A stretch of DNA of 64,000 nucleotides. Source: Burkholderia sp. WP9. GTDB taxonomy: Bacteria > Pseudomonadota > Gammaproteobacteria > Burkholderiales > Burkholderiaceae. The notes beneath the pieces were generated by a model, which did not search any database, was not told where the DNA came from, and worked only from the letters and a program-made list of their open reading frames with translations. The DNA lies in the NCBI RefSeq assembly GCF_900104795.1, contig NZ_FNTG01000001.1, forward strand, positions 4,340,001-4,404,000, in the 5' to 3' direction. Below, piece by piece: positions 2,402 through 46,899 of the stretch. A program made the position numbers and the translations under genes. Each line of letters begins with the position of its first letter. The first letter of the stretch is position 1.

Positions 2402-2824
2402 TCAGCTCGCCACGATGTCGAACGAGTGCGTCAGCTCAGCGGTCTTCGCGATCATGATCGACGCCGAGCAGTACTTGTCGTGCGACAGGTTGATTGCGCG
2501 TTCCACGGTGGCCGGGTTCAGATTCTTGCCCGTCACGGTGAAGTGAAAGTGAATCTTGGTGAACACTTTCGGATCTTCGCTGGCGCGTTCGGCTTTCAGC
2601 GTCACCGAGCAATCGCTGATTTCCTGACGGCTTTTCTTCAGGATCATCACGACGTCGTAGGCGGTGCAGCCGCCCGTGCCGAGCAAAACCATTTCCATCG
2701 GACGCGGCGCGAGGTTTCGGCCGCCGCCTTCGGGCGCGCCGTCCATCGCCACCAGATGGCCGCTGCCCGTCTCGGCTGCGAACGCCATCCCGTCTTGCCC
2801 CATCCAACTCACTTTGCATTCCAT
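2402..2824 (-). CDS. OsmC family protein, YhfA-like
   Basis: A 140-residue cytosolic protein of the OsmC/Ohr fold, whose studied members reduce organic hydroperoxides using two cysteines. Cys53 (GGCTAYD) and Cys119 (DKYCSAS) are where the family's redox pair sits, and the sequence resembles E. coli YhfA along its whole length. I place the start at the ATG at 2824 because GGAG lies six bases before it; an upstream GTG at 2836 would add four residues and has no better site. The gene converges on rnpB. YhfA itself has no firmly established substrate, so peroxidase activity is an inference. Confidence 0.93.
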   Translation of the reverse strand: MECKVSWMGQDGMAFAAETGSGHLVAMDGAPEGGGRNLAPRPMEMVLLGTGGCTAYDVVMILKKSRQEISDCSVTLKAERASEDPKVFTKIHFHFTVTGKNLNPATVERAINLSHDKYCSASIMIAKTAELTHSFDIVAS

Positions 2825-3123
2825 GCTGTGCTCCACCGCGCTTCGCTATATCGAGACGGCATTGTAGCCCGGTGTCTGAGCGTCCGCCCGAGGCGACTTT
2901 TGTCGCAAAGTTATGCGTGATGACGGCTTGCGTGTTGCGCTGCGGCATGTTCAGCCGATTCGGGAATGCCCTGACGAGTTTAGGGGTTTTACTCTAGACG
3001 ATGTCTACCTGAATATCAGGTCGGCCGACCTTTAGTGACTGATTTAAAAGAGAATTCGTTGCTTTGAAGCTGAGAATGATGATTGCCGCATTATGAAATG
3101 GCATTTCGCAATGCAAATGTTCT
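2825..3123. other. Intergenic stretch with two overlapping dyads
   Basis: No coding region recognised. CCTGA-ATA-TCAGG (3008-3020) overlaps the perfect 14-bp palindrome AGGTCGGCCGACCT (3018-3031). These could be an operator or a small stem; nothing else stands out before the small-RNA promoter. Confidence 0.4.
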
Positions 3124-3152
3124 TGCGTCGCACAAGGTGCGCTCATATAATT
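3124..3152 (+). promoter_or_regulatory. Sigma-70 promoter of candidate small RNA
   Basis: TTGCGT (3124-3129), 17-bp spacer, perfect TATAAT (3147-3152). Predicted start of transcription is near 3159. The next strong signal downstream is a terminator only 60 bases away, so this promoter appears to serve a very short transcript. Confidence 0.75.
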
Positions 3153-3158
3153 CGATCT

Positions 3159-3218
3159 GTCTCCTCCACCTCCTCCTTTGGTGGATTAAACCCGAACCGC
3201 TAGTTCGGGTTTTTTTTC
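3159..3218 (+). ncRNA. Candidate ~60-nt small RNA with CU-rich loop
   Basis: Bounded by a strong promoter and a strong intrinsic terminator with no open frame between. The predicted RNA has two hairpins. In the first, TCCACC (3166-3171) pairs with GGTGGA (3181-3186) and presents the loop TCCTCCTTT, which is complementary to Shine-Dalgarno sequences and resembles the 3' end of 16S rRNA. The second is the terminator. This is the layout of CU-rich-loop sRNAs that block ribosome binding sites, usually with Hfq and its poly-U tail. Such sRNAs are known in alpha- and betaproteobacteria; I cannot say whether this locus matches a named one. Targets are unknown. Confidence 0.7.
3192..3218 (+). terminator. 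Intrinsic terminator of candidate small RNA
   Basis: CCCGAAC (3192-3198), loop CGCTA, GTTCGGG (3204-3210), then eight T residues (3211-3218). Strong, and well separated from any upstream coding gene on this strand. Confidence 0.9.
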
Positions 3219-3358: not shown

Positions 3359-3388
3359 TTGACTTGCCGTAGCAAATTCCTTTATAAT
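3359..3388 (+). promoter_or_regulatory. Sigma-70 promoter of rplM-rpsI
   Basis: TTGACT (3359-3364), 18-bp spacer, TATAAT (3383-3388). Transcription would start near 3395, giving a leader of about 115 nt before rplM. In E. coli the same operon is controlled by L13 acting on its leader; the length here would allow that, but I do not recognise the fold. Confidence 0.8.
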
Positions 3389-3509: not shown

Positions 3510-3938
3510 ATGAAGACGTTTTCCGCAAAAGCCCATGAGGTTACGCGTGAATGGTACGTGATTGACGCGACGGATAAGGTTCTCGGGCGTGTCGCCAGCG
3601 AAGTGGCACACCGTCTTCGCGGCAAGCACAAGCCTGAATTCACTCCGCACGTCGACACCGGTGATTTCATCATCGTTATCAACGCCGGCAAGCTGAAGGT
3701 CACGGGCAACAAGGCTACTGACAAGAAGTACTACCGCCACTCGGGCTACCCGGGCGGTATCTATGAAACGACGTTCGGCAAGATGCAAGAACGCTTCCCG
3801 GGCCGTGCGCTCGAGAAAGCGGTCAAGGGCATGCTGCCGAAGGGCCCGCTCGGCTACGCGATGATCAAGAAGCTGAAGGTCTACGCTGAAGCAACGCATC
3901 CGCATTCGGCACAACAGCCGAAAGCGCTCGAGATCTAA
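3510..3938 (+). CDS. rplM: 50S ribosomal protein L13
   Basis: A 142-residue large-subunit protein, one of the early assembly proteins that bind 23S rRNA. The sequence starts [19 protein letters not shown] and carries [19 protein letters not shown] and the YRHSGYPGG motif, matching L13 end to end at its normal length. First gene of the rplM-rpsI operon; only 11 bp separate it from rpsI. The ribosome binding site is weak (GGAT), in keeping with translational control of the leader. Confidence 0.99.
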
Positions 3939-30607: not shown

Positions 30608-30725
30608 TCACGTTTCGCAGACGGGTGAGCCAGAAATTGGGGATTTCCGTCTGATCAGTAGGGTTGCGCTGCATGGGCGGCGCGGCTGCTGTATGCTTTG
30701 CCAGCCGGTCGATCCGGCAATCAGT

Positions 30726-30952
30726 GCGTCTTCAGGGCGGGGTGAAATTCCCCACCGGCGGTATGCCGGCAGCGCGAAAGCGTGAGCCGGTGAGCCCGCG
30801 AGCGCCCGCGTCGTCAGTGTGTTTGGACCTGTGCAGCTGCGTTGCATGGGACCAGCGTAATCGCCAAAGCGATCACGCTGGTCGACACGGGGTCAGCAGA
30901 TCTGGTGAGAAGCCAGAGCCGACGGTTAGAGTCCGGATGGAAGAAGATGTGC
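30726..30952 (+). promoter_or_regulatory. FMN riboswitch (RFN element)
   Basis: Binds FMN and lowers ribB expression when FMN is plentiful. Conserved RFN blocks appear in order: TTCAGGGCGGGGTGAAATTC from 30731, CACCGGCGGTATGCCGGCAG, GAGCCCGCGAGCGCC, then after a long gap GTCAGCAGATCTGGTGAGA, AGCCAGAGCCGACGGTTAGA and GTCCGGATGGAAGAAGATG. The gap (about 30808-30890) is an enlarged variable region with its own hairpin, GACCAGCGT...ACGCTGGTC (30850-30883). It lies about 130 bp before ribB. Confidence 0.95.
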
Positions 30953-46684: not shown

Positions 46685-46899
46685 AAAAGCTCTTTGCAAT
46701 GCAGTTTCGCGAACGGCACACATGGGCCCAGGCAGGCATCAACGCGGCATGAACACACCCACATGGCATGTTCGAGGCCCGAAGCCCAGTTCCCGGTCGC
46801 AGAGAAATCGGCGGCACGCGGGAAGCGCGTGCCGAATGCTTCAACGCGCTATGCAGACACGTTGACTGGCCTTAAGTTGCATTTCGCCGCCGTGGGATG

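Follow-up and report, generated by a model that had tools for sequence, protein, structure and literature searches.

The 64,000-nucleotide stretch of Burkholderia sp. WP9 DNA analysed here (the window) carries a small RNA (sRNA) gene between an OsmC-family gene and rplM (Table 1). Sequence comparison confirmed the initial annotation in calling it a real, stand-alone sRNA gene: the predicted transcript matches a known RNA family, contains two hairpins and a U-tailed terminator, and folds at −23.1 kcal/mol as a 61-mer (shuffled mean −10.85; z = −4.49; 0 of 200 shuffles equal). Transcription of the gene and its start site are predictions; the start position is also the conserved 5′ end of the RNA in a comparison of family cores. 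A protein-coding gene was rejected, as the open reading frame list gives only mechanical frames across the hairpins.

Table 1. Features of the sRNA locus, in window coordinates.
Feature	Position	Strand	Remarks
OsmC-family gene	2402-2836	-	one flank of the sRNA gene
Conserved upstream box around TATGAAAT..ATTTCGCAATGCAAAT	3090-3119		alignment of 14 rplM-type promoters
PhaR-operator-like palindrome TTCTTGCGTCGCACAAG	3120-3136		core TGCGTCGCA at 3124-3132; overlaps the −35
−35 hexamer TTGCGT	3123-3128	+	3/6 against TTGACA; 17-bp spacer to −10
−10 hexamer TATAAT	3146-3151	+	6/6 consensus, from sequence
sRNA, RF02278 member (ncS27-type double-hairpin RNA)	3158-3218	+	predicted transcript of ~61 nt; predicted start 3158
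5′ CU-rich seed UGUCUCCUCC	3158-3167	+	matches Site 1 of Bordetella S17; from sequence
Hairpin 1, stem UCCACC/GGUGGA	3165-3185	+	pairs 3165-3170/3180-3185 in the fold of the 61-mer; covarying fourth pair
Anti-Shine-Dalgarno loop UCCUCCUUU (Site 2)	3171-3179	+	fold
Hairpin 2, intrinsic terminator	3188-3217	+	stem 3188-3197/3203-3212; 8-T run 3210-3217
Promoter-like site ahead of rplM	3359-3388	+	TTGACT-18-TATAAT, 11/12
rplM (L13)	3510-3938	+	other flank of the sRNA gene

The initial description of the promoter as near-consensus is half right, because the −10 hexamer agrees with its consensus throughout and only half of the −35 hexamer does. The 17-bp spacer stands, and TTGCGT begins one base before the start first given. 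The TTGCGT-17-TATAAT pair is absent from the output of a consensus promoter scan. The strong terminator was recovered with its stem and a run of eight T, and CU-rich unpaired sites able to pair with ribosome binding sites, as claimed for the loop, are the published description of the family (PMC5688073). Overlooked at first was a second such site, at the 5′ end of the RNA.

A covariance model search of the window assigned the RNA to RF02278 (Betaproteobacteria toxic sRNA) at 71.7 bits (gathering score 50; model positions 1-64 of 64), far beyond chance given its E-value of 1.7e-12, and the two hairpins, CU-rich 5′ end and CU-rich loop of that family are present. The RNA itself is a member of an already named family and not a new one, which answers whether it had a name in Burkholderia: B. 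cenocepacia carries ncS03, ncS05, ncS27 and ncS62. It is probably the counterpart of ncS27, judging by length and family. The ncS27 RNA of strain J2315 shares its two hairpins, CU-rich sites and Rfam family. In the window the gene has the upstream-of-rplM position of the ncS27-type group, with an OsmC-like gene alongside. The published ncS27 length of 92 nt (PMC5688073) compares with a predicted primary length of 93 nt at the B. aenigmatica rplM locus, counted to the base after the T-run with a start assumed 7 bases after the −10, J2315 itself being outside the loci compared.

The host genome holds nine RF02278 matches, seven above the cut-off (three on contig C1 and two each on C2, C3 and C4). 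In a drawn sample of family genomes, 137/150 gave matches (133 above the cut-off), and 14 control genomes searched gave none. Among named rplM loci, the best 80 of at least 593, 43 have an element nearby (18, 11, 5 and 9 per 20), and some loci without a match have a short upstream sequence (e.g. L016, L034). No element above the gathering score was found in the stretch examined at Massilia, Duganella and Janthinobacterium rplM loci. Many relatives have both RNase P RNA and the sRNA upstream of rplM; in the window RNase P RNA lies at 1882-2295, upstream of the OsmC gene, and in the stretch examined around rplM of Paraburkholderia fungorum, unlike its relatives, neither has a match above the gathering score. 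Across the 150 genomes, 131 have both PhaR and the sRNA, 11 neither, 2 PhaR only and 6 the sRNA only, a co-occurrence given no weight because most double absences are reduced genomes.

Covariation in the first stem, proposed with the initial annotation as a check, is present. Of 88 distinct cores, 43 have U-A and 42 have C-G at the fourth pair; the count was made by script on 109 distinct strings, 21 of which did not fit the parsing pattern, and the cores counted include one or more sub-threshold strings. On these sequences the change is clean and two-sided, and stem 1 covaries. The terminator has two-sided changes at 4/6 predicted pairs (27 rplM-type cores); RNAalifold on the same cores retained the terminator alone and lost hairpin 1 through misalignment. 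Conservation of the loop, also proposed as a check, holds in near relatives, and the loop is changed or lost in L068, L041, L044, L072 and the g13 genomes. The 5′ CU-rich site hardly varies across aligned family members and is, in these alignments, more constant than the loop site.

The window copy departs from its orthologs at the 5′ end. Most rplM-type orthologs have some 30-40 extra nucleotides between the −10 and the core, often including a hairpin (e.g. GGTTGCAG...CTGCAACC); here TATAAT is followed by six bases and the core, and the ~30-nt 5′ leader is absent. On a tree of rplM with the bases after it (43 loci less 3, plus the window), 35/41 rows have a leader and six lack one, as labelled by eye. 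Leader state changed at least four times, three of the changes being forced by well-supported branches. The window alone lacks the leader within a well-supported set of eight rows, and the leader is present in its closest neighbour, P. aspalathi (98% identical); on this tree the direction around the window is clearly one of loss. Without the leader, the predicted start falls on the mature 5′ end itself, and we infer that the primary transcript would need no RNase cut to acquire it. In this it differs from ncS27, whose longer primary form has a processing site, and from Bordetella S17, a 190-nt precursor cut by RNase E (PMC11722255). The loss offers a natural comparison of processed and unprocessed forms in which to ask what RNase maturation adds.

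The second departure from the known family is a palindrome on the −35 that resembles an operator for PhaR, a PHB-sensing repressor that PHA is described as removing from phaP1 (PMC12849132). Compared by eye, TTCTTGCGTCGCACAAG agrees with YTKNTGCRNYGCANMAR, the operator consensus deduced for R. eutropha PhaR (PMC12849132), at 13/14 informative positions, with one mismatch at the K; the S. meliloti PhaR motif contains YGCRNYGCR (PMC12542648). On a matrix built from 15 S. meliloti sites (training scores 15.4-25.3), the site scores 9.9 bits. It is only the sixth best site in 64 kb, so the case for an operator rests on conservation and not on the window copy. The best matrix site of the window is TCTTTGCAATGCAGTTT at 46691-46707 (12.5 bits).

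The TTCTTGCGTCGCACAAG-type operator is conserved in near orthologs, and its core, TGCRNYGCA, occurs within 150 nt upstream of 79/117 RF02278 elements against 115/3048 control bins of the same loci. This count comprises 50/74 whole-genome and 29/43 rplM elements of at least 50 bits and leaves out L146 (contig edge) and the ninth own-genome match; among weaker elements the core precedes 1/9. The Fisher probability of 7e-74 overstates the association because of relatedness among the rows, many of which are also top-scoring matches. In a further set the core precedes 17/20 elements above the cut-off and 1/5 weaker ones, the L196 and L197 matches falling in a leader hairpin. The core usually sits at −34 or −33 when a copy has no leader and 60-77 nt upstream when it has one, so the operator follows the promoter; at least L028 and L029 are exceptions, with the match inside the leader and away from the −35. 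In one family, 26-28 of 29 loci retain the spacer half-site GCA, much as they do the −10.

Searching 399 genomes of the order for the operator and the core at the leaderless spacing, which by design misses leader-bearing copies, gave 24 places in 21 genomes and none in the reversed control. By eye, 22 of the 24 have two hairpins followed by a T-run (19 genomes, 11 genera, 6 families); L230 and L236, in which these are missing, were rejected as sRNA genes.

The strict core is missing upstream of 38/117 elements, including four accessory copies of the host genome and the rplM copies of Burkholderia and Cupriavidus genomes that have PhaR. Because those four accessory copies (L004 and L005 on C4, L006 on C2, L007 on C3) have no operator, only part of the RF02278 family would be under PhaR here, if any is. 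All four have GGTTTAYRCT just before the start, and three are on contigs of 188-235 kb; the element also occurs in L138 and L169, from other genera. The conserved box upstream of the operator is kept as well in L023 and L024, which lost the PhaR-like core.

The host genome encodes one PhaR (PF07879, TIGR01848) and gives seven phasin matches. TGCRNYGCA precedes the two best phasins, 97 and 156 bp before the start of one (L127) and 91 bp before the other (L128), and lies 33 bp before a third (L130); it was not found in the near upstream of the other four or of phaR. Copies of the sRNA were then compared in 42 of the 137 genomes that have one, a selection that took in all six without PhaR; a few weak matches in G002, G009 and G011 and the PhaR-less G086 were left out. 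The operator is present at one or more copies in 32/36 genomes with PhaR (30 without the hairpin matches of G022 and G042) and in 0/4 near-complete genomes without it, or 1/5 counting the incomplete G053 (p = 0.003, for genomes that were chosen and not drawn). G053 (83% complete, no PhaR in the assembly) has the operator at 3/3 copies, and L015 has it in an assembly of unstated completeness that shows no PhaR. Within one genus, PhaR occurs together with the operator in G021, G056, G066 and G076, and G041, without PhaR, has a shortened, decayed operator at its sRNA promoter (L141). Four genomes with PhaR (G015, G019, G094, G127) lack the strict operator, G094 by a near miss, and in the named set PhaR and operator show no correlation (operator in 28/41 with PhaR, 1/2 without). 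L068, with neither PhaR found nor operator, was rejected as a natural experiment: G127 has PhaR, a near-identical promoter and no operator.

Candidate targets were sought with GGAGGAGACA, the 10-nt complement of the 5′ seed, placed 1-7 nt before ATG. The genome has 10 such sites and the reversed control none, an excess that is no proof of targeting and is partly expected, because the string itself resembles a ribosome site. Nine of the 10 open frames of at least 157 aa, for which Pfam (at most the first 300 aa per frame) gave MFS (two), porin, NMT1, AMP-binding, APH and LysR, and nothing for two. At this level of prediction the targets agree with the published target classes.

Relatives of this RNA reportedly proved toxic when cloned in E. 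coli, as later papers say of Kimelman 2012. The family itself came to light through clones that proved toxic to E. coli; four of its members have been mapped in B. cenocepacia (PMC4603805) and four listed in Herbaspirillum (PMC7011215). ncS27, summarised in PMC10987360, was described among 'double-hairpin RNAs' with CU-rich regions complementary to ribosome binding sites; its overexpression attenuates growth, and it rises 9.7-fold in biofilm, 4.3-fold in glucose medium, 3.9-fold in starvation and 2.4-fold in stationary phase (PMC5688073). The same paper, from 2017, reported an upstream motif common to three of the four B. cenocepacia copies and called the regulation of accumulation unknown. 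S17 of Bordetella shares with the window sRNA a 5′ CU-rich seed and a first loop that are reported to be conserved in Betaproteobacteria; S17 represses a target directly, is not similarly toxic in E. coli, and has a promoter for which the authors postulate repression in vivo, with TTGCAT where the window has TTGCGT at the −35 (PMC11722255). A likeness to the NmsR sRNAs of Neisseria, whose CU-rich unpaired sites face ribosome binding sites, has been drawn (PMC5688073); NmsR is a tandem pair, whereas the RF02278 copies here are dispersed. In the parts of these papers covered here, PhaR and PHB have no occurrence in PMC11722255 and PMC10987360, nor 'polyhydroxy' in PMC5688073. Among the titles listed on PhaR with sRNA, or with small RNA and Burkholderia, none joins PhaR to RF02278, the 2019 NcS27 paper (Sass et al.) being outside this scope.

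The operator-like sequence in the promoter suggests an sRNA that is switched on when carbon is stored as PHB. Without PHB, PhaR would sit on the operator overlapping the −35 and keep the sRNA low; as PHB accumulates, PhaR would be drawn onto the granules, the operator freed and the sRNA made. Its two CU-rich sites would then pair with mRNAs for transport and catabolism at their ribosome binding sites, translation of these messages would fall, and carbon uptake would be turned down. For the pairing we extrapolate from literature on relatives, and both the binding of PhaR and its direction of action at this operator are deduced from the motif. The nearest precedent is MmgR of Sinorhizobium meliloti, an sRNA whose promoter binds PhaR and which is reported to be repressed by it as part of PHB control. 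MmgR is another RNA, as only RF02278 reached its Rfam gathering score at the window sRNA, and it is reported to act on phasins, whereas the window sRNA is thought to target uptake and catabolic genes.

We consider it likely, though well short of certain, that the window encodes an ncS27-type RF02278 sRNA upstream of rplM that pairs with ribosome binding sites, is gated by PhaR through the −35 operator and has lost its leader. Towards the broader proposal, that RF02278 sRNAs form the RNA branch of the PhaR regulon and that PHB frees the operator so that they shut carbon uptake, we lean only slightly. The published rises of ncS27 in biofilm and glucose medium speak for PhaR control; its rise in starvation is not plainly predicted by a PHB switch and speaks against it. 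The same sRNA might instead leave PhaR uninvolved, with TGCRNYGCA binding another regulator, whether activator or repressor, or reflecting a promoter style of these bacteria. Genomes with PhaR and no operator, the lack of correlation in the named set, the deviation of the rplM-type site at the K of the PhaR consensus and the conserved box adjoining the operator all favour such an explanation, but the core fits the PhaR consensuses of a beta- and an alphaproteobacterium and precedes the two best phasins of the host, and we judge it unlikely without dismissing it. A general promoter style was rejected in particular: in 9 Mb just 8 copies of the motif with a −10 were counted, three of them promoters of RF02278 elements, and the reversed control gave 7.

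It is very improbable that the gene is a constitutive housekeeping sRNA with a neutral palindrome and a level set by RNA stability and Hfq; accumulation could reflect protection against degradation, as has been suggested (PMC5688073), but conservation of the spacer half-site matches that of the −10, and the spacing is alike in six families. That the RNA is part of a longer rplM leader or attenuator, a caveat raised with the initial annotation, is scarcely credible: it does lie upstream of rplM on the same strand, but it ends in its own U-tailed terminator, rplM has a separate promoter-like site, and sRNA paralogs occur elsewhere in the genome.

If PhaR does gate the sRNA, the wiring would be that of PhaR and MmgR in alphaproteobacteria, reached by a different RNA family. 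It would also answer what controls RF02278 sRNAs in several families of the order. A conserved operator of the PhaR type would link carbon storage to a silencer acting broadly at ribosome sites, in bacteria that include bioplastic producers and associates of plants and humans. Elsewhere in the window, an FMN riboswitch was identified at 30724-30952 (98.7 bits).
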